64,000 nucleotides of DNA from Methanolobus vulcani (GCF_006546655.1 NZ_VIAQ01000019.1:1-64000); one strand, 5' to 3'. Counted from the first letter of the stretch, positions 3,755-24,100 are shown. The notes: generated from the sequence alone by a model not told the origin. Program-made: numbers and translations.

Positions 3755-3809
3755 TGCGGGAGGTGCGATTCGAACGCACGAACTCCTACGAGACAGGGTC
3801 CTAAGCCCT
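3755..3809 (-). pseudogene. 3' half of host tRNA-Leu (UAG), cut by element integration
   Basis: The minus strand reads the 3' half of a tRNA-Leu: anticodon stem and loop (AGGGCTTAGGACCCTG), long variable arm, T arm and CTCCCGC acceptor strand. From the variable arm to the 3' end it equals the intact copy at 23878-23962. The CCCTG of its anticodon stem does not match the 5' half of the intact copy, but pairs exactly with the CAGGG in the orphan 5' half at 24058-24100. The two halves therefore come from one host gene split by insertion. Beyond the loop it runs into unrelated sequence beside the integrase gene. Confidence 0.9.
3797..3809. repeat. Attachment core, left copy
   Basis: GGTCCTAAGCCCT, identical to 24058-24070. 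It covers the anticodon loop and part of the stem of the split tRNA-Leu. Just inside, ACAGGGTC occurs again (3814-3821) after its copy at 3793-3800 overlapping the core, a possible arm-type site. Confidence 0.8.
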
Positions 3810-3846
3810 ACTTACAGGGTCACGTAATATTTATTACTGTATAAAG

Positions 3847-3862
3847 CATACTAGATAGTATG
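3847..3862. promoter_or_regulatory. Palindrome over the integrase start codon
   Basis: CATACTAGATAGTATG, a perfect inverted repeat with 7-bp arms, whose last three bases are the integrase ATG. It could be an autoregulatory operator or an accessory integrase site, since it lies within 60 bp of the attachment core. No Shine-Dalgarno is visible, so the mRNA may be leaderless, from the TATA-like AATATTTATT near 3826-3835. Confidence 0.5.
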
Positions 3863-4993
3863 AAATATGCGCCTGAGGTAGAAGGAGAGAACAAAGAACC
3901 CCTTGAAGATTATGCCAGGAGTCTTGATCTTAATAACTTCAAGGAAACAACAATCAACACTAAGCTATGGAAAGTTTATACCTTCCTGAAATTCCATGAT
4001 AACAAAAATGTCAATGATATAACTAAAAAAGACATTGAGAACTACATCCTCTACCGAAGGAAGAACAACAAACCAAAAACAGTTCATAATGACATTGTGG
4101 ACCTGAGACTTTTCTTCAAGTGGCTAAAGCCTGAAAATGACTTCTTTGACAATATCAAGTCAAGGGCACCAAAGAACCACTTGCCAACCAAAGAGATAAT
4201 TGTTCCTGCAGATATCAAAAAACTATTACCTGCCTGCAAGACACAACGTGATAGAGCTATTGTTATGTCCTTCTGGGATAGTGCCGCAAGAGCTACTGAG
4301 ATACTCAATCTGGACCTTAGACATGTAGAGATAGATAAATACGGAGCTGTGATAGTTGTCGAAGGCAAAACTGGAATGAGAAGAATTAGACTCATTGAAG
4401 CAGTACCGGACCTTCAAGCATGGATAAATCAGCACCCCAACAAAGACGACCCCAATGCACCTTTATTTGTCACATTCAGAAATAGCGGAAAAGAACCAAA
4501 AAGGCTTGACATACGCACAGTTCAGAACATGCTAAAGACAGTAGCAAATGATGCAGGTGTTAAGAAAAATGTACACCCACATGCATTCAGACACGGAAAG
4601 CTCACTGACCTTGTCAAACGTGGGTTCAAGGAAACAGAATTAAGGATAATCGCAGGTTGGGAAGCAGATTCCAAAATGCCTGCCACCTACATCCACCTAT
4701 CAGGAGATGACGTGGAAAAGAAGGTCCTAGCATCCTACGGAATAATAGAAGATGAGACTAAAAAGGAAAAGCTGGAACTAAAGCCAATAGAATGCCCTCG
4801 CTGTAAAAGCCTTAACCCACATGATGCAAAATATTGTAGTAGCTGTTCAATGGTCCTTGACCAGAAAACAGCAATTAAGATGGACTCTGAAATGAAGACA
4901 GCCGATGACAAACTTACCCAGCTCATGCAATCAAAGGTTGATGAATTAGTAGAAGCTCGAATTAATGATGTTCTTAAGAAGATAAACGTTTAA
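3860..4993 (+). CDS. Tyrosine recombinase / integrase with C-terminal zinc ribbon
   Basis: Site-specific integrase of 377 residues. An N-terminal SAM-like core-binding domain (about 20-105) is followed by the catalytic domain. The visible catalytic set is R144 in SAARATE, H241-x-x-R244 in HPHAFRHG, the GW motif near 262, and Y277 in ATYIHLS. After it comes a zinc ribbon (CPRCKSLNPHDAKYCSSC, about 312-330), common in euryarchaeal integrases, and a short helical tail. It lies 50 bp from the left attachment core and is read into the element, so it most likely catalysed insertion into tRNA-Leu. The gene is whole, so excision may still be possible. Its 3' end overlaps the convergent downstream gene by 20 bp. 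Confidence 0.93.
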   Translation: MKYAPEVEGENKEPLEDYARSLDLNNFKETTINTKLWKVYTFLKFHDNKNVNDITKKDIENYILYRRKNNKPKTVHNDIVDLRLFFKWLKPENDFFDNIKSRAPKNHLPTKEIIVPADIKKLLPACKTQRDRAIVMSFWDSAARATEILNLDLRHVEIDKYGAVIVVEGKTGMRRIRLIEAVPDLQAWINQHPNKDDPNAPLFVTFRNSGKEPKRLDIRTVQNMLKTVANDAGVKKNVHPHAFRHGKLTDLVKRGFKETELRIIAGWEADSKMPATYIHLSGDDVEKKVLASYGIIEDETKKEKLELKPIECPRCKSLNPHDAKYCSSCSMVLDQKTAIKMDSEMKTADDKLTQLMQSKVDELVEARINDVLKKINV

Positions 4994-5903
4994 GATCAAA
5001 GGAAGGCCAATGTGCATATCTATCTTTTTCATCTTTCTCTAAAATAGGATTAAATGAAGGGTCCATTATGTCATTAACTAAGAAATGAACTCTTTTAACA
5101 TCCAATCTGAGCTGTTCACGATCTTCTTCTGCTGTCAAAAGTTCTAAAAATGGGTAATCACACAAAATTTGCTCAAATAAAATAGGTACTTTACTTTTAT
5201 CAAGTAGACTCTCAAAATGCTTAACTCTTGGAGTCAAAGAACTCAAAGCTTTATCATGAATCTCATTGAGAAGTTGAACTTGTTTATCCTCAGCAACCAC
5301 CTCACTTTCGACTATGGCAGCGGCTATTGTAGACACCGATATAAATCGACCTTGTTTTAAGTGCTTGGCTAAAACTTTGTGTTCATAAACAAGCCATCCT
5401 GAAAGCTCCTCACAATCGTAGATACCCAATACAACATATAGAGCCTTGTAAGAATATTTAAGACATAATTGTATCACTTCTTTTTCGTTTGCTGAAAAAG
5501 CATTGTGGCCTGAAGATACCCGTTTATTTTCAAAAATAGAAATCAGATTATCAATTTGTGACTTATAATAGTCTTTTGTCATGATATGATCAATCAGGCT
5601 TTTTGAACCCTGTGCATACAAGTAATTCAAAACGTCTGTCATATCGCCCAAGTAGTAATGTTCGGTATATTTATACCGAGTAGCACATTTTTTTTCTGAT
5701 AACAAAATACCCTTATCTATCAGCTCTTCACATTTTCCTTTTAACCATGATTTATCAGCTTTAAACTCACGTGCAATTTCTGCAGCATATGTAGGCTCAT
5801 TGTTGTTATTAATGAGATACATGATAATCTTTTCATCTGTTTTATTTAAGAGATATTCTTTAGCATAATCATCTGAAGTATAATCCGAGTTCAAATCATC
5901 CAT
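4974..5903 (-). CDS. Winged-helix protein of the integrated element, function unknown
   Basis: A 309-residue protein. Residues about 20-80 look like a winged helix-turn-helix (DEKIIMYLINNNNEPTYAAEIAREFKADKSW... then a wing), suggesting DNA binding. The rest is mostly helical and matches no family I know. It may be a transcription regulator of the element or a copy-control factor. It is convergent with the integrase and overlaps its end by 20 bp. An inverted repeat (5946-5971) flanks the TATA-like AATATAAATC of its own promoter, which fits autoregulation. Confidence 0.6.
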   Translation of the reverse strand: MDDLNSDYTSDDYAKEYLLNKTDEKIIMYLINNNNEPTYAAEIAREFKADKSWLKGKCEELIDKGILLSEKKCATRYKYTEHYYLGDMTDVLNYLYAQGSKSLIDHIMTKDYYKSQIDNLISIFENKRVSSGHNAFSANEKEVIQLCLKYSYKALYVVLGIYDCEELSGWLVYEHKVLAKHLKQGRFISVSTIAAAIVESEVVAEDKQVQLLNEIHDKALSSLTPRVKHFESLLDKSKVPILFEQILCDYPFLELLTAEEDREQLRLDVKRVHFLVNDIMDPSFNPILEKDEKDRYAHWPSFDLKRLSS

Positions 5904-5945
5904 GCCAGATAATTTTCAAACAAACTATTTGAAGACATCTAACTT

Positions 5946-5971
5946 GTGGGGATTTGATTTATATTCCCCAC
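5946..5971. promoter_or_regulatory. Inverted repeat around a promoter, likely operator
   Basis: GTGGGGA and TCCCCAC (7-bp arms, 12-nt spacer) enclose a TATA-like element read leftward toward the winged-helix gene, whose ATG ends about 43 bp away. The layout fits repression by a dimeric regulator, possibly that gene's own product. The same stretch may also serve the rightward cassette at 6179. Confidence 0.5.
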
Positions 5972-6178
5972 TGGTAGGGATTAATTTTCTGTCACCTACA
6001 ACTTATGATACTATTTATAACAGTACTCCAATCTTGCATCTGAGGAACAATTCCTCTAAACTCGACAAAGAGTAAACTGAACAGATAATTGAACAAAAAT
6101 GTAGAATCTGCACCGGTCCAACAAATCTTGGCGGATAGTGAACCGATGCACAAACGCGCACGTTGGGAGTGCACATTG

Positions 6179-6376
6179 ATGAATAGTAGCATATCAGGTA
6201 TTAAGCCTTCTATTGAGAAAGTAGATGAACAGATAATCGAACACATGCCCCAGTCATTCCAACTGATGCTCAGGATAGAGAAACTAGCAAACGAAAAGCT
6301 GGATGATCTTCTGGAACCTGTTAGACGTGGAGAAATGACCCTTGAGGAACTCAAAAGGTCAAGGGGGTTATTGTGA
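6179..6376 (+). CDS. Small helical protein upstream of the replication-like gene
   Basis: 65 residues if started at the ATG with GGGAG about 9 nt upstream. A longer in-frame start at 6089 has no such site. The product is charged and helical (VDEQIIEHMPQSFQLMLRIEKLANEKLDDLL), ending in an LEELKRSRGLL segment. Its stop codon overlaps the start of the next gene, so the two are translationally coupled. I do not recognise a family. A helper or control protein for the downstream gene is a reasonable guess. An 18-bp near-repeat (TGAACAGATAATTGAACA, 6078-6095; one mismatch at 6226-6243) occurs upstream and within it. Confidence 0.6.
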   Translation: MNSSISGIKPSIEKVDEQIIEHMPQSFQLMLRIEKLANEKLDDLLEPVRRGEMTLEELKRSRGLL

Positions 6377-8265: not shown

Positions 8266-8394
8266 ATTTCCTATAGCCCAAAATGGCATTTATCCCTCTA
8301 TGAAACCAAAGATTTAATCGAGAATGTTCGACTTTAAAAGTAGTATAAGTAATCTATATTATAGCTTATAGATACCTATAATAACCTTTATATC

Positions 8395-8414
8395 ATAATA
8401 TTGCGCAATATTAT
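8395..8414. promoter_or_regulatory. Perfect 20-bp palindrome at a promoter
   Basis: ATAATATTGCGCAATATTAT, fully self-complementary, placed between TATA-like strings (CTTTATATC just before, TTATTTATAC just after) and 70 bp ahead of the 47-residue ORF at 8484. This is the expected layout of an operator for a small autoregulated gene. Which protein binds is unknown. Confidence 0.6.
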
Positions 8415-8483
8415 TTATACTATGAATCAGTACAAGTGACAAGTTAAGCAGCATTATAATTAGTGATTTCAGGAGTGATAAAC

Positions 8484-8627: not shown

Positions 8628-9185
8628 TTATTCATTTTTCTCTTCTTTTTCTTCATTTATATTTTTGTAATAATCATTAGGTATACATGTCAATAGAACC
8701 TTCACAAAAAGATATACAATACCTATTTCTTTCCTTTTCAACATCCAGTTAAGCAAAAATTCTATTCGCCCCATCTTACGTGAATTCTGTCTCAACCAAG
8801 TCTCAATGAAATCCACATCAACTTCATATCTTGCTATTTTTAAAAGGAACTGTAATCTTTCGTCTTCAGTTGCAATGATTTTATACCCTTCGGCTTCCAG
8901 TAAAATATAGGCAACAGCAAACCCAGTCCTTTTGTTTCCATTTCGAAATGCATGACGGCACGTAATAGAATCGAGCGCAAACGCAGCATTCTGGAACACA
9001 CTATTATTAGAGTGTATTCTCCATTCGAACAAAGTTTCTAGTGAACCAATTTCATGTATTCCTGGTAAATAATCATCAGGATTCAGCGCCTTGTCAAACT
9101 CTATAATATAATCATGGATTTCGATAACCTTCTCAACATTCAAATCAACAATAGGTTTTCGGTCCATTCTACGACAAAACTCCAC
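8628..9185 (-). CDS. Fic/Doc family toxin-like protein
   Basis: 185 residues from a GTG at 9185; an ATG six codons on (9167) with GGAG about 12 nt before it is equally likely. The Fic-fold active loop is HAFRNGNKRTG (near residues 78-88). The GNKR form is nearer to Doc, a kinase of elongation factor Tu, than to AMP-transferring Fic proteins with GNGR. The position that is Asp/Glu in canonical Fic motifs is Asn here. Doc-like features upstream include the IEIHDYII and GIHEIGSLE segments. The tail beyond residue 130 is longer than in Doc and includes a hydrophobic stretch. Likely a stability or abortive-infection module of the element. Confidence 0.8.
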   Translation of the reverse strand: MEFCRRMDRKPIVDLNVEKVIEIHDYIIEFDKALNPDDYLPGIHEIGSLETLFEWRIHSNNSVFQNAAFALDSITCRHAFRNGNKRTGFAVAYILLEAEGYKIIATEDERLQFLLKIARYEVDVDFIETWLRQNSRKMGRIEFLLNWMLKRKEIGIVYLFVKVLLTCIPNDYYKNINEEKEEKNE

Positions 9186-9302
9186 TTTTAAAGCTTAAAG
9201 CTTTTGATTCTGTATTTTCAAAATAGATCAACGGTAAATATTATTTAACCCAATATAAACAGTTGTCTGTAAATTGAAAGTATTCCGAAAACACCCAAAA
9301 TA

Positions 9303-9314
9303 GGAAGATCTTCC
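9303..9314. repeat. 12-bp palindrome GGAAGATCTTCC
   Basis: Perfect palindrome in the non-coding region between the Fic/Doc gene and the cas operon. It shares the GGAAGA...TCTTCC arms with the longer palindrome at 9382-9399, so both may bind one factor. Confidence 0.5.
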
Positions 9315-9998: not shown

Positions 9999-10037
9999 TT
10001 TACAACGTAATGACATTGTAGGGATTGGTGAAATGTT

Positions 10038-11891
10038 GTGATTGAAGCAATCAAAGAGATTGGAGAGTATGCACTAAAAAAAGATGAAAAAAATCCAGAG
10101 AATCCTATCGAAATTATAATTGAAGACCCTGCATCATCTCCAACTTACAAGCATATTTTAGCAATAATTCTGAATGAAACTGAAACTGAATTCACGTACG
10201 GTGGTATTCAGCTTGAAGAATATAGTAAAGAAAAGAAGGAAAAGTACCTATATAAAGGTGGATCTTCTAGAGGGACAGATTTGTCCCCTACTTCTAAAAT
10301 TACTACGTTAGATAAAACATGGAACAACAAAACAATTGCGTGGTTCAGAAAAGTTATCAATGACACGAATGTAGATATAGAAGAAGTTGAATCAAAGTTT
10401 CTTGAGAGCATATATGAATGCTTGGAGATTAACAAAGATATTATTTTAAATGATTTAACTGAAAAAAGTAGTGATTTTGCAAAAAATGAAAATGCCATCA
10501 TTACTTTGATCATAAATACTACAAATCTCTCTCCTCAATATATAGGAGACATCAATGTTTTTAAAAAAATAGTGGAACAATACTATTCTCAAAACTTATC
10601 TCACTCAGCTACATACAAAATTGACTCCATAGGACATAATCAAGTTTGCTCAGTATGCAATCATGAAAGTGAAGAAGTATATGGACTAGTTACTACATAT
10701 AAATTTTACAATGTAGATAAGCCCGGATTTGTCAGTGGAGGATTTGACAGAAGTGAATCTTGGAAAAACTATCCAGTATGCCTTAAATGTTCTCTTGCTC
10801 TTGAGGCTGGAAAACAGTATTTGGAAGAATACAATAAGTACAAATCATATGGTATAAATTATTATATAATCCCAAAACTTCTCCAACAAAATGGAAGCAG
10901 TGATATATATGAAGTATTTGAGGATTATAAAGAAAATATACTTGATGGAAATTTAACCATCAAAAAAGAATATGGAAGACTGTTGTCTGAAACTGAAGAA
11001 GAGATATTTGAGCTTCTTTCAAATCAAAGTAATACACTTAGTAACAACATTCTATTTTTTGAGAAAACAAATGCTGCTTTTAGGATTCTACTTTATGTAG
11101 AAGATGTTCTTCCTTCCAGATTAAGAAAATTGTTTGAAATAAAAAAAATAGTGGATAAAAAAAGTACTTTTAATAATCTTTACAAAAGGAATCATCCACT
11201 CTCCTTTACATTTGGTAATATATGGTATTTATTTAGTAACCAAGAACAAGACGGTACTAAGTATTTTTTAGAAATAGCAAATAATATTTTTTCAAATAAG
11301 ACACTTAGTTATACTTTTTTGGTGAAAAAAATAGTGGATAAAGTGAGGAGAGACTTTGTGAATGATAGAAGTACAATTAATTCTACCCTCAAAGGCCTTC
11401 AACTACTAGATTATCTAAATTATCTTGACCTGCTAGACAATTTCAATGGAGAGAATAAAGTGAGAACTGATTTTGATGATACCTTAAATAAATGTAACAC
11501 ATCTATTGATGAAAAAGCGAATCAACTTTTTAGTGAGTTTTCTGATTTTTTTAACCAACCTGCAAAAAGAGCTATTTTCTTGCAGGGTGCTCTCACACAG
11601 TACCTATTGAATATTCAGTGGCATGATAGAGGAGCATCGCCTTTCAGAACAAAGTTACATGGCTTAAAACTAGATGAGAAGCTTGTAAAGAAACTCTTCC
11701 CTGAAATTCAAAATAAACTTGAAGAATATGGGAAAAATTACTATCTAGACCTTGAAACTTTAATTTCAAAATATATGCTACAAGCAGGTAGTGACTGGAA
11801 TATATCCAAAGATGAAATCAATTTCTATTATGTTCTTGGAATGAACCTTTCATACATATTTAAGAACCAAGGAGAGAATGCAGATGAGTGA
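10038..11891 (+). CDS. cas8b: Cas8b (Csh1 / TM1802 type), large subunit of type I-B Cascade
   Basis: 617 residues, within the usual range of Csh1-type Cas8b. It is the large Cascade subunit that recognises the PAM and helps load target DNA. Two cysteine pairs, C204-x2-C207 (VCSVCNH) and C248-x2-C251 (VCLKC), form the zinc-binding insertion typical of this family. Start is GTG with GGTGA-like sequence upstream. It opens the operon and its end overlaps the start of cas7. The gene is strikingly AT-rich. Family assignment rests on the cysteine layout, size and neighbourhood, since Cas8 sequences diverge widely. Confidence 0.88.
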   Translation: MIEAIKEIGEYALKKDEKNPENPIEIIIEDPASSPTYKHILAIILNETETEFTYGGIQLEEYSKEKKEKYLYKGGSSRGTDLSPTSKITTLDKTWNNKTIAWFRKVINDTNVDIEEVESKFLESIYECLEINKDIILNDLTEKSSDFAKNENAIITLIINTTNLSPQYIGDINVFKKIVEQYYSQNLSHSATYKIDSIGHNQVCSVCNHESEEVYGLVTTYKFYNVDKPGFVSGGFDRSESWKNYPVCLKCSLALEAGKQYLEEYNKYKSYGINYYIIPKLLQQNGSSDIYEVFEDYKENILDGNLTIKKEYGRLLSETEEEIFELLSNQSNTLSNNILFFEKTNAAFRILLYVEDVLPSRLRKLFEIKKIVDKKSTFNNLYKRNHPLSFTFGNIWYLFSNQEQDGTKYFLEIANNIFSNKTLSYTFLVKKIVDKVRRDFVNDRSTINSTLKGLQLLDYLNYLDLLDNFNGENKVRTDFDDTLNKCNTSIDEKANQLFSEFSDFFNQPAKRAIFLQGALTQYLLNIQWHDRGASPFRTKLHGLKLDEKLVKKLFPEIQNKLEEYGKNYYLDLETLISKYMLQAGSDWNISKDEINFYYVLGMNLSYIFKNQGENADE

Positions 11892-12870
11892 CGTAATTTC
11901 AAATCGTTCAGAATTATTATTTTTGTATGACGCAAAAGATTCGAACCCCAATGGTGACCCTCTCGATGAGAATAAACCCAGGATAGATGAAGAAACTGGA
12001 ATTAATCTTGTTACAGATGTAAGACTAAAAAGAACAATTCGAGATTACCTATATAAATTTAAGGAACAAGAGATATTCGTTCGTGAAATTGAAGATGAGG
12101 AGGGTCATATCCAAGATGCAAAACTCAGAGCGGAAGACTTTTTATTGGAAAATGGCAAGGCTGTAGACAAAAAAGATATTAGTCTGGCAGAGATGAAAAA
12201 AATTATTGATGAAAATGTTCTCAAAGATTGTATTGATGTCAGATTGTTTGGTGTCACGCTTCCCATTGAAAAAGAAACTAACAAAAGTTCCTCAATTACC
12301 CACACAGGTCCAGTGCAATTTAAAATAGGACGTTCATTACATAAAGTTTTTACAAAACATTTCAAAGGAACTGGAGCATTTGCATCTAAAAAAGGTGCAT
12401 CACAAAAAACCTTCCGAGAAGAAGATTTTTTACCTTATTCGCTTATTTGTTTCTATGGCATCATAAATGAAAATGTTGCAAATGAAACAAGATTGACGGA
12501 AGATGACATAAAATTACTTTTAGATGGAATGTGGAATGGAACAAAAAGCCTAATATCTAGATCTAAAGTGGGCCAGGTTCCAAGATTGATTTTAAAAATC
12601 AATTACAAAAAAGAGAACTATCACATCGGTGATCTGAATAATATGCTAAAACTTGATTCAAACATACCAGATGATGAAATACGCGATGTCTCCCAGATAA
12701 AATTAGATATTTCACAACTTATCAGTGCCTTTTCTAAAAACATTGAGACTATTGATAATGTAGAATACTGTATAGACGACAGGGTGAATTTGTTATTTGA
12801 TGGAAAAGAAACAACCCTTAGTGAATGTCTAAAGAATAAGAAATTATCAATCAAAGAACTGAAGTTTTAG
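11884..12870 (+). CDS. cas7: Cas7 (Csh2), backbone subunit of type I-B Cascade
   Basis: 328 residues from the ATG at 11884, chosen because GGAG lies 9 nt upstream; an ATG two codons earlier is possible. The N-terminus carries the Csh2 signature (FLYDAKDSNPNGDPLDENKPRID...LVTDVRLKRTIRDYL), the RRM-like fold that polymerises along crRNA. The thumb segment HTGPVQFKIGRSLHKV and the later GMWNGTKSLISRSKVGQ also fit. It overlaps the end of cas8b and is followed after 8 bp by cas5. Intact. Confidence 0.95.
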   Translation: MSDVISNRSELLFLYDAKDSNPNGDPLDENKPRIDEETGINLVTDVRLKRTIRDYLYKFKEQEIFVREIEDEEGHIQDAKLRAEDFLLENGKAVDKKDISLAEMKKIIDENVLKDCIDVRLFGVTLPIEKETNKSSSITHTGPVQFKIGRSLHKVFTKHFKGTGAFASKKGASQKTFREEDFLPYSLICFYGIINENVANETRLTEDDIKLLLDGMWNGTKSLISRSKVGQVPRLILKINYKKENYHIGDLNNMLKLDSNIPDDEIRDVSQIKLDISQLISAFSKNIETIDNVEYCIDDRVNLLFDGKETTLSECLKNKKLSIKELKF

Positions 12871-12878
12871 GTGTTAAT

Positions 12879-13595
12879 GTGGATAAGGTACTTGCATTCG
12901 ATGTGTGGGGAGAATATGCTCATTTCAGGAAGTATTATACCACCACATCACCACTCACTTTTTCCATACCACCACGAACTGCAATATGTGGCTTAATTGC
13001 AGCAATTATTGGTATTGATAAAACAGAATATCTTAGTTATTTCTCAAAAGATAAAGCTGATATTGCCGTGAAACTGTTGTCTCCAGTAAAAAAGGTTAGA
13101 CTTTCTGAGAATCTAATCGACACCAAAACTGCACTAATGATGAGTAAAATAAAGAACCGTACACAAATACGCTTCGAACTTCTAAAGGATGCAAAGTTTA
13201 GAATATATTTTAGCCATAAAGAAGCTGAATTATATGAAAAACTGAGTTCATACCTTACGCAGCATCAGTCTTTTTATACCCCCTGTCTTGGACTAAGTGA
13301 GCATATTGCAAATTTTGCGTTTGTTGGTGAATTCAGCTCTGAGCTGAAAAATGGAACCGAAGATTTTGTAAGAATAGATTCCGCAATTCCAGTCAAACAA
13401 AATTCAAATTTAAAAATCAAGTTTGATGAAAATGGTGGCGAGTATTTCCATGAAACTTTACCTATTGAAATGGCAGAGGATAGAACTGTACTGGAATATT
13501 CTAAAGTAGCTTTTGAGCGTAATGGTCAACCCATAATTGCAAAATTAGACACGTATTGGGAACTTGATAATGGTGAGAGAATTGTCTTCTTATGA
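12879..13595 (+). CDS. cas5: Cas5 (Cas5h/b), 5'-handle binding Cascade subunit
   Basis: 238 residues starting at GTG. The N-terminus, VLAFDVWGEYAHFRKYYTTTSPLTFSIPPRTAICGLIAAIIGI, is the Cas5 signature with the glycine-rich P-P-R-T-x-x-x-G-L turn. Cas5 caps the crRNA 5' end in Cascade. The C-terminus overlaps the start of cas3. No sign of damage. Confidence 0.94.
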   Translation: MDKVLAFDVWGEYAHFRKYYTTTSPLTFSIPPRTAICGLIAAIIGIDKTEYLSYFSKDKADIAVKLLSPVKKVRLSENLIDTKTALMMSKIKNRTQIRFELLKDAKFRIYFSHKEAELYEKLSSYLTQHQSFYTPCLGLSEHIANFAFVGEFSSELKNGTEDFVRIDSAIPVKQNSNLKIKFDENGGEYFHETLPIEMAEDRTVLEYSKVAFERNGQPIIAKLDTYWELDNGERIVFL

Positions 13596-15954
13596 ACTAC
13601 TCTCTCACCCTGAGAAAACACTCCATACTCACCTCGGAAATGTTGCAGATCTTAGTAGAATTACTATTAATTCAAAGAATTTAAATTTTGAAAATTTAGA
13701 TGTAAATATTCTTGCAGATATATCATATATCATTGGTGCCTGCCATGACCTTGGTAAAGCCACACGTTATTTTCAAGATTATATACGAGAAACGGATGAA
13801 CAACGTAAATTAAAATTTAAGAACAATCCTCTTACTCGGCATGGACTGATTTCTGCTGTTTTTACTTACTATGTACTAAAACAACATATTCAAGAAAAAA
13901 ATGAGGAGCTTTTTTTCATACCATTATTTGGATATTTAGCTGTAAAAAGGCATCATGGTAATTTGAATAACCCTATTTTAGAATTGCTTGCTTTAGATGA
14001 TGAAAATATTGAATATTTAAAAAAGCAAGCTGAAGCTATAGATTCAAAGCAAATAAATGAGGTTTATCAGTCACTTTTACCTGACATAAATACCAATGAT
14101 TTCTTGAAGCAAATTGAACCATTGTCCATAGAAATAAAAAAAAGCAAAAGGCAATTAGCAAGACACTTGAAAATTGAAGGGTCAACATATAGTTATATCC
14201 TCTTTCAACTTTTGTATTCAGTTCTTTTGAACTCAGATAAAACAGATGCTGCAAGTCTCAGCATGTCTACTCGACCAAAGATTAGCCCATTATTAGTAGA
14301 TGAATATCGCAAATTTAAAAAATGGAATAACACAGAGGAAGGAATAAACAACATTCGAAATCTAATCTATTCTGATGTTACAGATGAAATTAAGAACATA
14401 AATCTTGATCATAGAATCTATTCTTTGAATGTTCCAACTGGCACAGGAAAAACACTTACTTCATTCTCATTGTCATTAAAATTAAGAGAAAAGATAGAGA
14501 GTGAACTCAATTATTCTCCAAAAATAATATACAGTTTGCCTTTTTTGAGCATAATAGATCAGAATTATTCAGTATTCGAAGATGTTTTTAAAACAATTTA
14601 TGAAGATGACCCAGATACATCTACACTATTAAAACATCACCACTTGTCAGATATCCAGTACACATTTCAAGATGATGAGTTTAAAGAAGATAAAGCTCTT
14701 TTATTAATTGAAGGTTGGAATTCAGAAATAGTTGTCACTACATTCGTACAGTTTTTCCATACACTGATATCGAATAGAAACAGGTCATTAAGAAAATTCC
14801 ACAGCATTGCTAATTCCATTATTATTCTCGATGAAGTTCAATCTATTCCACATAAGTATTGGCTACTTTTTAAAGAACTTATTATAACATTATCCAAGCA
14901 TCTAAACACATATTTTGTCTTTGTTACTGCAACACAACCTCTTATTTTTAATGAAAATGAAGGAGAAATTGTTGAACTTGCAAAGAATAAGAATGACTAT
15001 TTTTCCAAATTTGATCGAATTAGCCTTCAATACTTACCTGAACCTATGAGTTTAGATGATTTCAAGGAAAAGGCAAGATTAGACATTGAAACAATGGAAA
15101 ATAATGATTTTTTAATCGTTTTAAACACCATCAATGCAAGTAAAAAAGTATATGAGCATCTCACATCTCCGAAAAAACAATCCATTGACTACTTTTATCT
15201 TTCAACGCATATAACTCCAAAAGAACGCCTTGAAAGAATTAAACAAATAAAGAACACTAAAAAACGGAGAGTAATAGTAAGCACTCAATTGATAGAAGCG
15301 GGTGTTGACATTGATGTTGATGTGGTTTATAGAGACATGAGTACTTTGGACTCCATTAACCAAGTTGCAGGAAGATGCAATAGAAACTTCGATACCAAAA
15401 AGAAAGGAGAAGTAAAGATATTCATTCTCAAAGACGAGATAAAAGAATACTACAAATATATCTATCCTGCTTTTCTGATTGACAAAACCAAAGAAACTCT
15501 AGCTGGAACTGGTATCATAGAAGAAAAGCAATTTTTAGAACTAAACAACGAGTATTTCAAAAAGATAAAAGAAACTCAAAGTGAAGATGAAGCGAAAAAA
15601 ATCCTTGATGCTTTACATAATATGCGTTTTGATTACATCAAGGAAAATTTCCATCTGATTGAAAATGATTATGAAAAAGCAGATGTATTCATTGAAATTG
15701 ATGATAATGCCCATGCTATTTGGCAACAATTCAAAGCACTTCGTGAAATCAAGAACTCACTTGAAAGGAAAAACAAATTCTTGAATTTTAAAAAGCAGTT
15801 CTACGAGTATGTTATATCAGTGCCAAAAAGCAAAGCACCAGCGTTAGTTGATTCTGATACTGGAATTGGTTACATTCCGTATGATAAACTTAATGATTGG
15901 TATAATGAAGAAACAGGGTTTATAGCAAAAGATGGGGGGACATTGATTACTTGA
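13570..15954 (+). CDS. cas3: Cas3 HD nuclease-helicase
   Basis: About 794 residues from the ATG at 13570 (a TTG two codons upstream is also open). The HD nuclease domain is at the N-terminus: HTHLGNVADL near residue 18, ACHDLGK near 60, with RHG and KRHHGN further on. The SF2 helicase follows: Walker A PTGTGKT near 290, DEVQ (the Cas3 form of the DEAD box) near 421, SAT-like VTATQP, and motif VI QVAGRCNR near 600. The protein shreds target DNA recruited by Cascade. All key motifs are present, so it looks functional. It overlaps cas5 upstream and cas6 downstream. AT content drops sharply right after its stop. Confidence 0.95.
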   Translation: MVRELSSYELLSHPEKTLHTHLGNVADLSRITINSKNLNFENLDVNILADISYIIGACHDLGKATRYFQDYIRETDEQRKLKFKNNPLTRHGLISAVFTYYVLKQHIQEKNEELFFIPLFGYLAVKRHHGNLNNPILELLALDDENIEYLKKQAEAIDSKQINEVYQSLLPDINTNDFLKQIEPLSIEIKKSKRQLARHLKIEGSTYSYILFQLLYSVLLNSDKTDAASLSMSTRPKISPLLVDEYRKFKKWNNTEEGINNIRNLIYSDVTDEIKNINLDHRIYSLNVPTGTGKTLTSFSLSLKLREKIESELNYSPKIIYSLPFLSIIDQNYSVFEDVFKTIYEDDPDTSTLLKHHHLSDIQYTFQDDEFKEDKALLLIEGWNSEIVVTTFVQFFHTLISNRNRSLRKFHSIANSIIILDEVQSIPHKYWLLFKELIITLSKHLNTYFVFVTATQPLIFNENEGEIVELAKNKNDYFSKFDRISLQYLPEPMSLDDFKEKARLDIETMENNDFLIVLNTINASKKVYEHLTSPKKQSIDYFYLSTHITPKERLERIKQIKNTKKRRVIVSTQLIEAGVDIDVDVVYRDMSTLDSINQVAGRCNRNFDTKKKGEVKIFILKDEIKEYYKYIYPAFLIDKTKETLAGTGIIEEKQFLELNNEYFKKIKETQSEDEAKKILDALHNMRFDYIKENFHLIENDYEKADVFIEIDDNAHAIWQQFKALREIKNSLERKNKFLNFKKQFYEYVISVPKSKAPALVDSDTGIGYIPYDKLNDWYNEETGFIAKDGGTLIT

Positions 15955-16610
15955 TTGAACTAAAGATTTTCACCCTAACCCTCACCTCCACCCACCCCAT
16001 CAAAGGATCCGGTGCACAGCTTAGAGGCTTCTTTGCCACCAAATTCAACGAATACAACCTCTTACACCAACATAACACTGATAAATTCATCTACCAGTAC
16101 CCGATGGTCCAGTACAAAATGATAGGACAAACACCCACAGTCATCGGAATAAATGACGGTGCAGAGGTGCTCAAAGAAATATACGATGAGTACGACAAAA
16201 TCAACCTTAATGGCAATGAGTATGAGATATTAGAAAGGGGAATAAGCTACAAGAAAGAAGAATTTGGAATCTCCGAAAAGCTAATCAAATACGATTTTGT
16301 AACACCCTGGTTCGCACTGAATCAGGAAAATCATAGAAAATATCTAACCTCTAACAAGGAACAACAGGCAAATCTATTAAACCGAAATCTAACCGGTAAC
16401 ATGCTTTCCATGTCAAAATCCTTGAATTACCAAGTTCCTGAAAGAATAAAATGCCATACTGAACTGAAAGCTCGTCGTTCAAGTCTGAAAGGAAATGAGA
16501 TACTTGCCTTCAAAGGCTCCTTTGTCACAAACTTCCAGATCCCCGACTACCTGGGATTAGGCAAATCCGTATCACGTGGATTTGGGACGGTGAAACAATG
16601 CAACTTGTAA
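15951..16610 (+). CDS. cas6: Cas6, CRISPR RNA endoribonuclease
   Basis: 219 residues from TTG, with a G-run (GGGGGGA) about 10 nt upstream; it overlaps the cas3 stop. Cas6 cuts the repeat RNA to make crRNAs. The C-terminal glycine-rich segment YLGLGKSVSRGFGTVK is the Cas6 hallmark, and the N-terminal HPIKGSGAQLRGFFATKF matches the first ferredoxin helix region of the Cas6b-type family. The catalytic histidine cannot be fixed by eye. Codon use changes here: C-ending codons are frequent, unlike in cas8b-cas3. It may belong to a differently inherited block with cas1. Confidence 0.85.
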   Translation: MIELKIFTLTLTSTHPIKGSGAQLRGFFATKFNEYNLLHQHNTDKFIYQYPMVQYKMIGQTPTVIGINDGAEVLKEIYDEYDKINLNGNEYEILERGISYKKEEFGISEKLIKYDFVTPWFALNQENHRKYLTSNKEQQANLLNRNLTGNMLSMSKSLNYQVPERIKCHTELKARRSSLKGNEILAFKGSFVTNFQIPDYLGLGKSVSRGFGTVKQCNL

Positions 16611-17566
16611 TCAATTCACGTGGCTCTTACCTCAAAAAACAACAGAACTGTTTTCTTGTCAAGAACGAAGACAAAGTGTTCGAAGTCTCTGCCAACAAAG
16701 TTGAAAGTATCCTCATAACCACATCAGCAACCATTACAACTGATGCTATCAAGTTCGCTGTTGAAAATAACATTGACATAGTGTTTCTAGACCATTTTGG
16801 TGACCCATATGGAAGAGTATGGCATTCCAAATTAGGAAGTACTGTACTTATTCGTAGAAAACAACTTGAAATTGCAGACAAAGAGAAAGGCTTTGACCTT
16901 GCAAAAGATTGGATAGAGGTAAAAATCAACAATCAAATCGAATTTCTGAAAGACCTAAAGAAGAACCGTCCAGAAAAACGTGAAGAAATGGATGAATACA
17001 TAACAAATATAGAAGCAATGAAGGATAAGCTCATTGAACTTGACGGGGTTCTCGATGAAGCAAGAGGATCTATATTGGGAATAGAAGGTATGTCTTCAAG
17101 ACACTATTTTAATGCACTTAGCTATATTACGCCTGAAAAATGGAAATTTGAAGGAAGAAGCAGAAATCCTGCAGTCGATGAATTTAACTGTTTGCTTAAT
17201 TATGGATATGGTGTCCTTTATTCAATGGTAGAAAAAGCTTGTATCCTCTCAGGACTTGATCCTTATGTGGGTTTCATACACACTGATAACTACAACAAGA
17301 AATCACTTGTATTTGACCTTATAGAAATGTATCGAATCCATGTTGACAGGACCGTGGTCAACCTATTCTCAAAAAGAAAGATCAAAGAGGATTATTTTAA
17401 CAGCATCCCCAATGGCCTGAGCCTTAACAAAGATGGTAAAGCTGTGCTTATCCAAGCGCTTAACGAGGTTTTAGACCAGAGTATCAGCTATCATGGCAGG
17501 AATATCAAAATCAGAAATACAATACAAAGTGATTGTCATAAAATAGCTAATTCACTTATCAAATGA
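16598..17566 (+). CDS. cas1: Cas1 integrase
   Basis: 322 residues; ATG with GGTGA just upstream, overlapping the end of cas6. Cas1 catalyses spacer insertion with Cas2. The N-terminal beta domain runs to about residue 80. The helical catalytic domain has E in GIEGMSSRHYF (near 163), H in GFIHTDNYNKKSL (near 228) and D in VFDLIEMYR (near 241), the metal-binding triad. Length is typical. Intact. Confidence 0.97.
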   Translation: MQLVINSRGSYLKKQQNCFLVKNEDKVFEVSANKVESILITTSATITTDAIKFAVENNIDIVFLDHFGDPYGRVWHSKLGSTVLIRRKQLEIADKEKGFDLAKDWIEVKINNQIEFLKDLKKNRPEKREEMDEYITNIEAMKDKLIELDGVLDEARGSILGIEGMSSRHYFNALSYITPEKWKFEGRSRNPAVDEFNCLLNYGYGVLYSMVEKACILSGLDPYVGFIHTDNYNKKSLVFDLIEMYRIHVDRTVVNLFSKRKIKEDYFNSIPNGLSLNKDGKAVLIQALNEVLDQSISYHGRNIKIRNTIQSDCHKIANSLIK

Positions 17567-17869
<303 letters not shown>

Positions 17870-17876
17870 GGATATC

Positions 17877-18479
17877 ATGGAAGAGCTAGAAAGTGAAAGT
17901 TCTACAATAATTACTATTTCAGACGTGCTGGAATATCTATTCTGCCCCAGATTTATCTATTTTATGTACTGCCTGGATATACCTCAACATGAAGAAAACA
18001 GATTCAAGGTCATCAAAGGAAGAGATGTTCATAAAAAGCGGCAAATGACAAACAGAGAATATGTGAGGAAGAAACTAAACTGTATTAGCAAAGAATCCGA
18101 AGTCTATGTCGTTTCCAAAGCCCACCACATAAAAGGAATAGTGGATGAAGTACTTTTTTTAGAAGATAATACTGCTGCTCCTTTGGAATATAAGTTTGCA
18201 GAATATAAAGATAAGGTATTCTCAACTTACAAATATCAACTTGTTCTACAGGCATTGTTGATAAAAGAGAATTACAACATAGAAGTTCAAAAAGGATATA
18301 TCTGCTATACTCGTAGTAATAGTATGATAAAGGAATTAGCTTTTAAGTTATCAGATTTCAAAAAGGCTAATGACATCATCACAGATATTATACAGATAGT
18401 TGACAAAGGAAAATACCCTAAAGCAACAAAATCAAAGAACAAATGTATTGATTGTTGTTACAGAAATATATGTGCATGA
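17877..18479 (+). CDS. cas4: Cas4 nuclease of the adaptation module
   Basis: 200 residues with GAGGAT before the ATG. One iron-sulfur cysteine lies at the N-terminus (FCPRF, C23) and three or four at the C-terminus (C190, C193, C194, C199). The RecB-like nuclease core is between them, with a G-I-V-D-E motif (KGIVDEVLFLEDN) and a PLEYKF segment carrying the catalytic Asp, Glu and Lys. Cas4 trims prespacers and sets their PAM orientation. Last in the operon, after cas2; in many type I-B loci it precedes cas1. Confidence 0.94.
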   Translation: MEELESESSTIITISDVLEYLFCPRFIYFMYCLDIPQHEENRFKVIKGRDVHKKRQMTNREYVRKKLNCISKESEVYVVSKAHHIKGIVDEVLFLEDNTAAPLEYKFAEYKDKVFSTYKYQLVLQALLIKENYNIEVQKGYICYTRSNSMIKELAFKLSDFKKANDIITDIIQIVDKGKYPKATKSKNKCIDCCYRNICA

Positions 18480-18591
18480 CATAATTATCTTATACTTATA
18501 AGGAGTTCAATAATTTTGCAACAAGAATCAGCGTGTTCTGAAAGAAGCAATTTAACTGGTTATTTTGCTAAAAGCAGGAAATATTTGTGCT
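18480..18591 (+). promoter_or_regulatory. CRISPR leader
   Basis: 112 bp between cas4 and the first repeat, AT-rich with TATA-like CTTATACTTATAAGG near 18489-18503. Orientation is set by the repeat, whose 3' end is the conserved ATTGAAAC, and by the degenerate repeats at the opposite end. It should contain the array promoter and the Cas1-Cas2 docking site. Confidence 0.75.
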
Positions 18592-21500
18592 ATTCAAAAT
18601 CAAGATCCATTAAAACAAGGATTGAAACATAAATTTCAGTGGATCGCAAGCATGATACCTGAATATTCAAAATCAAGATCCATTAAAACAAGGATTGAAA
18701 CCCTCAATACCTTTGCCGCCTGAAATGGTGCATAAGACATTCAAAATCAAGATCCATTAAAACAAGGATTGAAACATGTTGGATGTTCAAATGCCGAACT
18801 AAGACTTATTATTCAAAATCAAGATCCATTAAAACAAGGATTGAAACAGGTTCCTACTGTAAGTGTCTGTGGCGTTGTCTCCATTCAAAATCAAGATCCA
18901 TTAAAACAAGGATTGAAACCCGTAAATTCAGAATTGCCAGCAGCAGATGTGGTTGAATTCAAAATCAAGATCCATTAAAACAAGGATTGAAACAGAGATA
19001 CGCGGCTGCTGACTTAAGGCGTGGTGGTGCTATTCAAAATCAAGATCCATTAAAACAAGGATTGAAACAAATCTCATCTCCTCTTCGGCTTCATTAAATT
19101 CAAAATTCAAAATCAAGATCCATTAAAACAAGGATTGAAACTATCGATGGTGCATCCGGTAATGTTCCTGAAATATGATTCAAAATCAAGATCCATTAAA
19201 ACAAGGATTGAAACTGTTAACAATACCGTCCACAACATCAACTTCCGTGATTCAAAATCAAGATCCATTAAAACAAGGATTGAAACAGCAATTCGACCAC
19301 AATATATGCTACTGTGAGTACGATTCAAAATCAAGATCCATTAAAACAAGGATTGAAACTCCTCTTCGTGGATGAGAAACAGATCAATCTCATAGAATTC
19401 AAAATCAAGATCCATTAAAACAAGGATTGAAACAGATCGTATCCGCAATCGGTGCATGGATACCATTTACATTCAAAATCAAGATCCATTAAAACAAGGA
19501 TTGAAACTGTATTCGTGAACAGATGACGAGTTCCAACCCAAGAAATTCAAAATCAAGATCCATTAAAACAAGGATTGAAACCTCTTGTACCTTGAAGACA
19601 AGACTGCTTATGCCATTTATTCAAAATCAAGATCCATTAAAACAAGGATTGAAACAGTTCGAGCTAGAAATCACCCTCGCGGAAATCGTGGCATTCAAAA
19701 TCAAGATCCATTAAAACAAGGATTGAAACTTGTTCTTCCTATACCGAACATGTAGATTCAGCCTCATTCAAAATCAAGATCCATTAAAACAAGGATTGAA
19801 ACCGGAAACTGATAAGGGTGTTCTGCTTGAACCTGCAATTCAAAATCAAGATCCATTAAAACAAGGATTGAAACACTTCGATAATGGGTGACTTCTTTAC
19901 GGCCTTTGATATTCAAAATCAAGATCCATTAAAACAAGGATTGAAACTTAACTCACTGTGGTATTCTGGGTGATGAAGATAACATTCAAAATCAAGATCC
20001 ATTAAAACAAGGATTGAAACTAATGGAATTCAACAACTATTCACAATATAGACAAATATTCAAAATCAAGATCCATTAAAACAAGGATTGAAACTAGAGT
20101 AATTGTCTGGTTGCCTCTGCATCCGCGAGTGATTCAAAATCAAGATCCATTAAAACAAGGATTGAAACCACGTGTGCTGGTGTTTGCCTGGTGTCCCAGG
20201 ACGTATTCAAAATCAAGATCCATTAAAACAAGGATTGAAACAATGAAACCTCTTGATCATCCCATCACCTACACCCAAATTCAAAATCAAGATCCATTAA
20301 AACAAGGATTGAAACAGTTAGGAGAGGTAAAACAATGTGGGCTACCCGGATTCAAAATCAAGATCCATTAAAACAAGGATTGAAACAGATTGTAAATGAT
20401 TACACCGAAGACAGGAAAATCATTCAAAATCAAGATCCATTAAAACAAGGATTGAAACCATTTACACGCACGTTCTTACGTGCAATGTCTTCGATTCAAA
20501 ATCAAGATCCATTAAAACAAGGATTGAAACAGAGAGACGGGTAAGTGGAAGACCGTGGCACTCACAATTCAAAATCAAGATCCATTAAAACAAGGATTGA
20601 AACAGTAATTCGACCACAATATATAGCATTGTGAGTCCGATTCAAAATCAAGATCCATTAAAACAAGGATTGAAACATGCTTTTGTGTAATGGTGATGGC
20701 AAGAGAAGGGATTCAAAATCAAGATCCATTAAAACAAGGATTGAAACTTATCTTGACACTGAAAGGAACCTCACAGAGGATGATTCAAAATCAAGATCCA
20801 TTAAAACAAGGATTGAAACTAGTAATTGGAGGGGATTGAACCTTAATACTGATGATTCAAAATCAAGATCCATTAAAACAAGGATTGAAACCCGATGAAG
20901 ACGACGTATCTGTCGATGCCGATGATATTCAAAATCAAGATCCATTAAAACAAGGATTGAAACGGCTATCTTTCCAGGTTCCATCTGCAATTGCTTCCTA
21001 TTCAAAATCAAGATCCATTAAAACAAGGATTGAAACACCGCCTCATTTCTTCATTTTGAACTGAGACTTAAACATTCAAAATCAAGATCCATTAAAACAA
21101 GGATTGAAACCCTAAGGATCGTTTCGGAACACATCTTTTGAACCTATTCAAAATCAAGATCCATTAAAACAAGGATTGAAACCTTGGAGGAGTGATTTGA
21201 TGAAAGGAATTGATAAGAATTCAAAATCAAGATCCATTAAAACAAGGATTGAAACGAAAAAGATATCTCCGGCTTAAAAAACAGTACCACTATTCAAAAT
21301 CAAGATCCATTAAAACAAGGATTGAAACTGAAACTCTACTTATAATAATTGCGTTCTGTGAATATTCAAAATCAAGATCCATTAAAACAAGGATTGAAAC
21401 GATTATCATGGAATATCCGAGGATGATGAGTATCCAATTCAAAATCAAGATCCATTAAAACAAGGATTGAAACCAAAACATACGGTGTCAATTACATAAG

Positions 21501-23806
21501 CTCAGAACTAATTCAAAATCAAGATCCATTAAAACAAGGATTGAAACGCTATCCCTGAAAGGACACTACGCAACCATATTAAATTCAAAATCAAGATCCA
21601 TTAAAACAAGGATTGAAACCTACAAGATAGTACATTGCAACAAAAGCAGCAGCAGGATTCAAAATCAAGATCCATTAAAACAAGGATTGAAACAGTCCTA
21701 CTTTCAAGGATATCCCCTCGAACATAGTATTCAAAATCAAGATCCATTAAAACAAGGATTGAAACCATCGTATTTGAATGCCCTCTTACATTCGCGAATG
21801 ATTCAAAATCAAGATCCATTAAAACAAGGATTGAAACATCTTCAAGAAAACCTGTAAAGCTCTAGCAGCTTCAATTCAAAATCAAGATCCATTAAAACAA
21901 GGATTGAAACTGGCTGCGACCTTATTTCTAAGGCTTTCAGTTGTAGATTCAAAATCAAGATCCATTAAAACAAGGATTGAAACATTCAGGATGTCCTGAA
22001 ACTGACGAACTGAAAGAATAATTCAAAATCAAGATCCATTAAAACAAGGATTGAAACGCTGTTGCCGGTGCCGGTTATCTGATATATAAGAAAATTCAAA
22101 ATCAAGATCCATTAAAACAAGGATTGAAACATTTTAGTTTGGATGGAAGAAACAGGAAAAAAATATTCAAAATCAAGATCCATTAAAACAAGGATTGAAA
22201 CTATTATAGATTATCATAGAGTACATAGAGTACTATGAATTCAAAATCAAGATCCATTAAAACAAGGATTGAAACTTCTAACCCTATTCTTAGCTATCCG
22301 ATCTGTTTACTATTCAAAATCAAGATCCATTAAAACAAGGATTGAAACTCCTTGATACTATTAATCTTTTCTTCTGCACCACCGATTCAAAATCAAGATC
22401 CATTAAAACAAGGATTGAAACGACATAATAAGAAGAAGTTAAAGAACATATAAAAGGATTCAAAATCAAGATCCATTAAAACAAGGATTGAAACTGGTCC
22501 TTCACTTCCACAGCTGGCAGAGCTTCCACATTCAAAATCAAGATCCATTAAAACAAGGATTGAAACGTTCATCTCCACACGTGACATTTTGACGAAATTC
22601 TTATTCAAAATCAAGATCCATTAAAACAAGGATTGAAACTATTTTTATAAATCCTGTTCAGGATCCCGGGTATTCATTCAAAATCAAGATCCATTAAAAC
22701 AAGGATTGAAACTTGCCGTATTATCATCTCCTCATTGAATCCTTGAGAATTCAAAATCAAGATCCATTAAAACAAGGATTGAAACTTGCTTTTCCTATGC
22801 CGAACATTTAGATTCAGCCTATTCAAAATCAAGATCCATTAAAACAAGGATTGAAACAAAAAAGATTGAGGAAGCTTGACGGTAAGCTCAGAATTCAAAA
22901 TCAAGATCCATTAAAACAAGGATTGAAACTAAAATAGCCTTCCGGGGCATCCATTGAGAAGGATGATTCAAAATCAAGATCCATTAAAACAAGGATTGAA
23001 ACTCAGAACATAGATAATAGATATAATCCCCCTCAGCCATTCAAAATCAAGATCCATTAAAACAAGGATTGAAACAGCCCTTCGATCATTCTGTCTATTT
23101 CTTCTTGTTTCATATTCAAAATCAAGATCCATTAAAACAAGGATTGAAACGAAAAATAGTAAAATATCCAGAAAATGCAGGCAAGTTATTCAAAATCAAG
23201 ATCCATTAAAACAAGGATTGAAACAACGGAGTAGCTTAAGCTCTCTTTTTTTTATCAAAAATTCAAAATCAAGATCCATTAAAACAAGGATTGAAACCAT
23301 TCTGGGAGTTGCACCCATGTCTTTTACAGGCGGATTCAAAATCAAGATCCACTAAAACAAGGATTGAAACTTACATACTCGTTTTTGAGGTGGCTTACAT
23401 GGCTGATTCAAAATCAAGATCCACTAAAACAAGGATTGAAACTGCCGAGGTTATGAGGGCACAGTATACCAGGCAAGAATTCAAAATCAAGATCCACTAA
23501 AACAAGGATTGAAACACTGATTACGGAGGTATAACATGGTAACAAGTACTAAATTCAAAATCAAGATCCACTAAAACAAGGATTGAAACTAGAGGATGTT
23601 TTTCAATATCGGGGAATGGATGGATTCAAAATCAAGATCCACTAAAACAAGGATTGAAACGTCATACAGATAACAGCACCAGCAAGCCATTCCTGAATTC
23701 AAAATCAAGATCCACTAAAACAAGGATTGAAACAATTAGTTTCAGATGAAACAACAACTTCATAATAACATTCAAAATCAAGATCCACTAAAACAAGGAT
23801 TGAAAC
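18592..23806 (+). CRISPR. Type I-B CRISPR array, 72 repeats and 71 spacers
   Basis: The repeat is 37 bp, beginning ATTCAAAATCAAGATCC and ending CAAGGATTGAAAC. I counted 72 copies with spacers of 34 to 38 bp. Repeats 1-65 are constant; repeats 66-72 (from 23334) all carry a T-to-C change (CCATTAAAAC to CCACTAAAAC), marking an older block at the trailer end. The ATTGAAAC end predicts the usual 8-nt 5' handle. Two spacer pairs are near-identical (19287-19322 with 20604-20639; 19730-19765 with 22786-22820). Repeat uniformity and intact cas genes indicate an active or recently active array. Open frames in it are artefacts of the repeats. Confidence 0.99.
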
Positions 23807-23841
23807 TGACAATGCATTAAGATAAATTCTTCCGTTAGTTC

Positions 23842-23877
23842 ATTTAAAATCAAAATCCACTGTAACAAGGTAAGTGA
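23842..23877 (+). repeat. Degenerate terminal CRISPR repeat
   Basis: ATTTAAAATCAAAATCCAC followed by TGTAACAAGG aligns with the repeat at several mismatches and loses similarity in its last 8 bases, abutting the tRNA-Leu 3' end. It closes a 72nd spacer (23807-23841) and keeps the CCAC variant. Decay at this end confirms it is the trailer. Confidence 0.85.
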
Positions 23878-23962
23878 TGCGGGAGGTGCGATTCGAACGC
23901 ACGAACTCCTACGAGAATGGGTCCTAAGCCCATCGCCTTTGGCCAAGCTGGGCAACCCCCGC
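23878..23962 (-). tRNA. Intact tRNA-Leu (UAG) carried by the element
   Basis: Complete 85-nt class II tRNA on the minus strand: acceptor GCGGGGG with CTCCCGC, anticodon stem ATGGG/CCCAT around CTTAGGA (anticodon UAG), a long variable arm and a T arm with GTTCGAATC. It lies between the array and the right attachment core, thus inside the element. Relative to the split host copy it has changes in the D loop and in both strands of the anticodon stem, which remain fully paired. One change alters the last base of the 13-bp attachment core. It probably replaces the function of the gene disrupted by integration. Confidence 0.95.
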
Positions 23963-24025
23963 ACAAAAGAGTAGTCATTAAATATATTGTTCACATATTA
24001 ATATTACGCAATGAGATATCTATTT

Positions 24026-24054
24026 TTCATAGAAATGCTATGAAGCCCTATGAA
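24026..24054. repeat. Putative integrase arm sites
   Basis: TTCATAG (24026-24032), CTATGAA (24038-24044) and CTATGAA (24048-24054) form an inverted and a direct repeat just inside the right attachment core. Short clustered repeats beside the core are typical of arm-type binding sites of tyrosine integrases. Confidence 0.5.
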
Positions 24055-24057
24055 TAT

Positions 24058-24070
24058 GGTCCTAAGCCCT
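24058..24070. repeat. Attachment core, right copy
   Basis: GGTCCTAAGCCCT, identical to 3797-3809. To its right the sequence continues as the host tRNA-Leu 5' half, and to its left as element DNA. Confidence 0.8.
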
Positions 24071-24100
24071 GCGCCTTTGGCCAGGCTGGGCAACCCCCGC
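24058..24100 (-). pseudogene. 5' half of host tRNA-Leu (UAG)
   Basis: On the minus strand: acceptor GCGGGGG, D arm GCCCAGCCTGGCCAAAGGC, and the anticodon stem and loop CAGGGCTTAGGACC, then a break into ATATTCATAGGGC. Its CAGGG pairs with CCCTG in the 3' half at 3755-3809, not with the neighbouring intact copy. Together the halves rebuild one perfect tRNA. It could still be transcribed from the native tRNA promoter, producing a non-functional fragment. Confidence 0.9.

Follow-up and report, generated by a model that had tools for sequence, protein, structure and literature searches.

In the archaeon Methanolobus vulcani, a 20.3 kb element encoding a tyrosine integrase together with a type I-B CRISPR-Cas system (clustered regularly interspaced short palindromic repeats with their associated genes) has severed the minus-strand host gene for tRNA-Leu(UAG) within its anticodon stem-loop, and carries a complete tRNA-Leu(UAG) gene in which the anticodon loop is the same and the anticodon stem is different. 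We describe this element in a window of 64,000 nucleotides (nt) (GCF_006546655.1 NZ_VIAQ01000019.1:1-64000; C16:1-64000 in our numbering, in a draft genome of 2.92 Mb), to which all positions refer, together with a family of elements that combine a broken tRNA-Leu gene with a recoded complete copy. We regard it as nearly certain that the carried gene replaces the broken one, and as quite probable that the whole is an integrative element with obligatory tRNA replacement and stem recoding; that recoding serves to keep the integrase away from the element's own tRNA gene is an explanation we favour with less assurance.

A broken tRNA gene and its carried replacement

BLAST searches of the element's own genome placed the two halves of the host gene at 3755-3808 (3') and 24058-24100 (5'), and ARAGORN predicted a single tRNA-Leu(UAG), the carried copy, at 23876-23963 on the minus strand (features are collected in Table 1). 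The two separate halves share a 13-bp core, GGTCCTAAGCCCT on the plus strand and AGGGCTTAGGACC on the tRNA strand, with 20,261 bp from core to core. Joined, they read CAGGG-CTTAGGA-CCCTG, with a stem paired at 5/5 positions; the carried copy reads ATGGG-CTTAGGA-CCCAT, also paired 5/5, lies 138 nt from the 5' half (loop to loop) and matches the 3' half at 96% over 54 nt. A first-pass annotation, made from the sequence alone, had claimed that the element cuts the gene in the anticodon loop, that the halves form a perfect stem together and that the intact internal copy has a self-consistent stem of its own; ARAGORN and BLAST agree on the cut, and the pairing bears out both stems. A complete tRNA is present at neither junction and the element's sequence rebuilds one at neither end; a core of 13 bp does not suffice for restoration.

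A second tRNA-Leu(UAG), sought in the same genome by BLAST and by pattern search, was not found, the remaining tRNA-Leu genes having the anticodons GAG (two genes), CAG and UAA. In a pattern search of 186 genomes of the order, the genome of the window (G000) likewise gave one match, the carried gene. CUA codons require a UAG anticodon, and 54 of them occur in 11 genes of the window; the carried gene is presumably expressed and essential, and by implication some archaea now depend for an essential tRNA on a mobile element. The carried gene is also the only UAG gene in G010, G020, G025, G123, G124, G127, G131, G136 and G085, and is the sole copy for its isoacceptor in G082, G086, G054, G105 and G130.

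Among genomes of the genus, only those with the split tRNA (G000, G010, G020 and G025) have integrases 81-97% identical, the remaining matches reaching at most 37% identity. Four relatives without the element (G001, G002, G004 and G024) retain, between the same flanks of conserved host DNA, a CAGGG/CCCTG gene that is uninterrupted, and no copy of the type at 23878 was found at these empty sites. Because there is no second UAG gene and the empty sites lack such a copy, the arrangement is one of replacement and not of 3'-end restoration, as the first-pass annotation had proposed; its replacement argument thus survives both the genome-wide check and the empty-site comparison. Although the elements of G000, G020 and G010 measure 20, 30 and 42 kb and the host sequence upstream differs in G010, all three elements end alike: the core is followed by atattcatagggcttcatagcatttctatgaaaaatag, by an upstream region containing the motif GCGTAATATTAATATG and by the carried tRNA. 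In two further Methanolobus genomes (G019 and G023, 95-99% complete), tRNA-Leu(UAG) was not found by BLAST or pattern.

A family of elements with recoded anticodon stems

An order-wide search yielded 32 genomes with integrases at least 41% identical, and 40-80 kb were examined from each integrase. We counted 24 integrated elements with a split tRNA-Leu and a complete carried copy of the matching isoacceptor: 16 with all three parts, two whose far end lies on a separate contig (G128, G130) and six from other classes of the phylum (G505 (two), G450, G323, G308, G344). Three candidates without a clear far end, split half or att (attachment) site (G123b, G130b, G405) were left out of the count, and three that have lost the 5' half (G025, G156, G170) were not scored as split. 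As the same layout was found in 23 other elements, the arrangement in the window is not due to chance. The integrases, from Methanosarcinales and other classes of the phylum, are 42-97% identical, and the targets comprise the anticodons UAG, UAA, CAG, CAA and GAG, the carried anticodon always being that of the broken gene. In the UAG elements the carried tRNA lies 129-148 nt inside the same end, despite differing size, cargo, hosts and genera. A scan of IMG/VR gave no match, and a scan of genome contigs gave M. vulcani only.

The tree of the integrases requires 10 changes of the target isoacceptor, where 4 is the minimum, a value as low being reached in 0 of 200 shuffles; these 10 changes imply that integrase and tRNA have switched target jointly many times. 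Of the protein families in the 17 elements compared, the integrase alone occurs in every one; the common module consists of integrase plus tRNA. CRISPR-Cas was considered as a component of the mechanism and rejected: within the family it occurs in four Methanolobus elements only, with a different I-B effector in G010, and most members lack it, hence it is cargo.

The carried stem differs from the target stem in 24 of 24 elements, both stems pair, and 13 distinct stem pairs occur. The carried 7-nt loop equals the target loop in all 24; the integrase-side copy is one base off in G054 and G344. From target to carried gene, the changes are CAGGG to ATGGG, CTGGA to CCAGA, CCGGA to TCAGA, CAGGA to TTGGA, CAGGA to TTAGC, CTAGG to TTAGG, ATAGA to GCAGC and CCAGC to ATAGC; elements from beyond the order show CTAGG to TCAGG, CTGGA to GCGGA, CTGGA to ACGGA, ATAGG to CCAGG and CTAGC to TCAGG. 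Among the 13 distinct cases, pair 27 (27-43) is changed in 12 and pair 28 (28-42) in 11. Over 16 scored elements the differences amount to 68/160 in the stem, 75/1017 elsewhere (G082, with an odd D-loop, being omitted from the non-stem count) and 0 in the loop. In G000 and G020 they number 4/10 in the stem against 1/68 outside it, and because one base only differs outside the stem, these carried genes resemble a local gene with a rewritten stem more than one of foreign origin.

The first-pass annotation had also suggested that the altered bases, by breaking the 13-bp core, could prevent the element from integrating into its own tRNA. The core is indeed broken, but identity of the core is not what discriminates: common cores range from 7 to about 19 bp, the shortest being exactly the loop (TTGAGGG and TTCAGAG, in G105 and G130c), and because this smallest core is kept by every carried tRNA, discrimination must lie in the stem. 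The 24 of 24 differing stems lend support to the suggested self-immunity. Among the UAG genes, a CAGG(G/A) stem goes with a split gene in 12 genomes and with an intact one in 51, and other stems go with a split gene in 0 of 67 (Fisher p 9e-5, ignoring kinship of the genomes); this bias fits a stem-dependent recognition, without proving it.

Proposed mechanism, competing explanations and known systems

Tyrosine recombinase sites have a standard layout in which a 7-bp overlap lies between inverted arms. We propose that the integrase acts on the element's site (attP) and on a tRNA-Leu gene, recombining the two at the gene's anticodon stem-loop; the 7-nt loop would serve as the overlap for strand exchange and the 5-bp stem as the two integrase-binding arms. 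The core of attP being short, integration would halve an essential tRNA gene, and the cell would survive by virtue of the complete tRNA-Leu of the same isoacceptor which the circular element brings beside attP with its own upstream region, and which after integration would lie about 100 bp inward of the far end. Such a replacement would have to retain the loop, which holds the anticodon, and so would stay a perfect overlap partner for attP. Because the loop contains the anticodon, only the stem would be free to change, and only pairwise; compensatory changes, mostly of pairs 27-43 and 28-42, would keep the fold, and the arms, with the binding of integrase to them, should vanish.

Alternatively, the carried gene could be a true replacement whose stem difference has no function, having been captured from an archaeon that naturally bears that stem, a reading which we consider unlikely though worth weighing. 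Natural stems do vary, the 118 uninterrupted UAG genes of the order-wide survey comprising 51 with ATGGG, 43 with CAGGG and some with rarer stems, and the carried copies of G124, G123a, G128 and G130 have a Methanosarcina-like body (TTTTCG beside the stem). In G000 and G020, however, the body is of the Methanolobus CAGGG type, with the excess of differences in the stem given above. Moreover, two natural UAG stems picked at random differ with a probability of 0.67, so that random capture would give 13 of 13 distinct target-carried pairs that differ with p about 0.006, and UAG genes are never split in hosts with non-target stems. Recoding within the element is therefore the reading that we prefer, and several observations weigh against it. 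ATGGG, which we had considered as a hallmark of carried copies and rejected on the survey of 186 genomes, is natural in uninterrupted genes of all the Methanosarcina-like g7 genomes with a match (a genus we take to be Methanosarcina) and of five Methanolobus genomes, and part of the stem difference could thus come from a captured foreign gene. Since elements are related, as are hosts, their independence is overstated by the Fisher values; a single stem pair is changed in G130c, and G344 shows one base of difference between the loops at its two ends.

Two further explanations concern the origin of the complete copy. The element could be an ordinary tRNA-targeting island and the complete copy the restored host gene, which is the usual case in bacteria and archaea (review PMC8371274), but the 5' half is a separate fragment with the host promoter outside the complete copy, which refutes it; in addition, the joined halves give a different, perfectly paired stem, and it is the joined version that relatives with an empty site possess. 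We give this explanation practically no credence. Hardly more credible is that an old tandem duplicate, or the remnant of an earlier element, lies between the halves by chance. This genome does have tandem tRNA-Leu(GAG) genes 158 bp apart, yet the copy recurs at a similar distance inside the same end of the UAG elements, across diverse elements, hosts and genera, three Methanolobus elements share an identical end sequence, and a circular virus has such a gene too; the conservation of this end module contradicts a chance origin.

The element most resembles the tRNA-dependent lysogeny of the actinobacteriophages Fionnbharth, LeBron and Gaia (Guerrero-Bustamante and Hatfull 2024, PMC10865867), in which the tRNA gene is broken and not restored, a replacement is brought and the carried tRNA is required for lysogeny. 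The shared traits are an element-encoded tyrosine integrase (PF00589), an attB that lies inside a tRNA gene and has a short core (13 bp here), a tRNA that is not rebuilt and a carried tRNA of the same isotype. Unlike those bacterial, temperate phages, the present elements reside in archaea, are of mixed types including CRISPR carriers, target tRNA-Leu throughout, hold the tRNA at a fixed place beside attP and have a recoded stem; the main text of PMC10865867 mentions neither anticodon stems nor archaea, and speculates that the carried tRNA may act as a (second) attB. We class the window element as working like tRNA-dependent lysogeny rather than as lysogeny proper; a relative, BK063669.1, is classed as a tailed virus. 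We compared three phage tRNAs with host-type or attP sequences, the TribleTrouble attP (a reported match to attB-4) standing in for the Mycobacterium smegmatis gene. The tRNA-Lys of Fionnbharth has the stem GCCGG/CCGGC versus TCCGC in the host-type attP, the LeBron tRNA has ATCGC/GCGAC, and the BrutonGaster tRNA has GCGGT/ACCGC versus the attP core ACTTTTAATCC; in all three the stem departs from these arm sequences, but the tRNAs differ elsewhere too, which makes this a lead only. For prophage Lj965 of Lactobacillus johnsonii, a single bacterial case, PMC10865867 likewise reports a tRNA that is not rebuilt and a cognate tRNA that is carried.

In archaea, integration of the SSV and pNOB8 types restores an uninterrupted tRNA, with SSV1 strand exchange taking place around the anticodon loop (Badel et al. 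2021, PMC8371274). The window element shares with these an archaeal tyrosine recombinase acting at a tRNA gene and, with SSV1, an overlap (here a proposed one) at the anticodon loop, and differs in leaving the tRNA interrupted. Like other mobile elements that carry CRISPR-Cas, it has a complete I-B system aboard, here as cargo which most family members lack. We found no archaeal case of tRNA-replacing integration in the open literature. The replacement principle is already known; new is an archaeal, partly CRISPR-bearing family with recoded anticodon stems. This extends tRNA-dependent integration from bacteriophages to archaea, contrary to the position taken in print that in archaea integration always restores the tRNA, and reveals a repeated solution (same loop, rewritten stem) to the problem of carrying an essential gene that is one's own target. 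tRNA stems may then evolve under integrase attack. More tentatively, and at somewhat less than even chances in our estimate, stem rewriting with the loop kept could be general among elements, archaeal or phage, that break a tRNA and replace it; it would conceal the replacement from the integrase and, where the carried gene outlives the element, leave the host a resistant tRNA allele, so that conflict between element and host would help to drive stem variation in methanogen tRNA-Leu.

Gene content, free form and relics

Table 1. Positions of the tRNA parts, att cores and genes in the window (aa, amino acids; ORF, open reading frame)
Feature	Position	Strand	Remarks
3' half of host tRNA-Leu(UAG), displaced	3752..3809	-	core with loop, 3' stem CCCTG, through encoded CCA (3752-3754)
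att core, integrase side	3797..3809		GGTCCTAAGCCCT
Tyrosine integrase, 377 aa	3860..4993	+	Phage_integrase PF00589, E 9e-18; SAM-like N domain
309-aa protein	4974..5903	-	weak winged-helix regulator match (Sta1 family), below cut-off
Two ORFs, 95 and 630 aa	6089..8265	+	without family match; also in G025 element
Fic/Doc-family protein	8628..9185	-	PF02661; Doc-like toxin match
Type I-B cas operon	10038..18479	+	cas8b/csh1, cas7/csh2, cas5, cas3, cas6b, cas1, cas2, cas4
CRISPR array	18599..23806		72 repeats
Carried complete tRNA-Leu(UAG)	23878..23962	-	stem ATGGG/CCCAT; without encoded CCA; sole complete UAG gene of the genome
Upstream region of carried tRNA	23977..24009	-	AT-rich TATA-like stretch and motif GCGTAATATTAATATG, like host tRNA-Leu(UAG) upstream regions
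5' half of host tRNA-Leu(UAG)	24058..24100	-	preceded by host promoter
att core, far end	24058..24070		GGTCCTAAGCCCT
Host flank, photolyase-like gene	24188..25567	-	present in relatives with and without element

The integrase gene is intact and lies 50 bp from one att core, which is outside the ORF, so that the gene is not split, unlike in the SSV type. Assignment of the CRISPR-Cas system to type I-B follows from the presence of Cas8b/Csh1, Cas7/Csh2, Cas5b, Cas3, Cas6b, Cas1, Cas2, Cas4 and an array. A decayed repeat at the array's end (23830-23877) directly adjoins the 3' end of the carried tRNA. Between the G010 and window elements, cas1, cas2 and cas4 are 96-99% identical and cas7, cas5 and cas3 about 30-34%, a pattern suggesting that the effector module has been exchanged around one adaptation module. 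None of the 114 spacers obtained from four arrays by exact-repeat extraction, which sampled the window array in part, matched the other elements or loci examined. No virion genes were found among the ORFs of the window element that were searched. The Fic/Doc-family gene has no annotated partner and otherwise occurs only in G025.

The archaeal tailed virus BK063669.1 (vir524), a circular record, has a tRNA-Leu adjoining an integrase 41% identical to that of the window. Between the two lies AAGGTTCAGGGCC, an att-like core that matches the loop and has arms unlike the tRNA stem CTAGC/GCTAG; this layout is the one predicted for an excised circle. At the other extreme, G025 lacks the 5' half, and host upstream sequence leads directly into the carried tRNA, probably a fusion by homologous recombination that has left the element unable to excise, and G156 has a similarly collapsed appearance. 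A stretch of G140 (G140:C13, L252, about 1657 and 3855) has a decayed 5' half, a carried-type ATGGG tRNA and, 2.2 kb beyond the latter, a complete CAGGG-type tRNA that is odd in its D-arm; no integrase match was found near the carried tRNA in this stretch. The earlier expectation that the tRNA makes the element hard to lose accords with G025, G156 and G140, where the tRNA was kept after loss of an end or of the integrase. In G005, a truncated ATGGG-type tRNA-Leu fragment (G005:C1:2111369-2111422, L106), far from the intact CAGGG gene and near a 357-bp stretch resembling the window element, is probably a relic of an element.

Casposon-like gene sets, consisting of a 400-aa Cas1 and a family B DNA polymerase-like protein of ~890-900 aa, are present inside the elements of G010 (two copies; L100-L102), G136 (L152-L153) and G130c (L174-L175), those of G010 and G136 close to the carried tRNA at its 3' end. 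tRNA-Leu is mentioned in papers on Methanosarcina casposons, and the carried tRNA may be a casposon target in these three elements. As further cargo, the G020 element (L098-L099) has at 14539-21210, in integrase orientation, an ORF of 2,223 aa with repeated NGDG(L) motifs. Finally, one stretch of G162:C21 (L257, L159-L160) contains complete tRNA-Leu genes for CAA, CAG (two) and UAA (two), as if elements had piled up in tandem.

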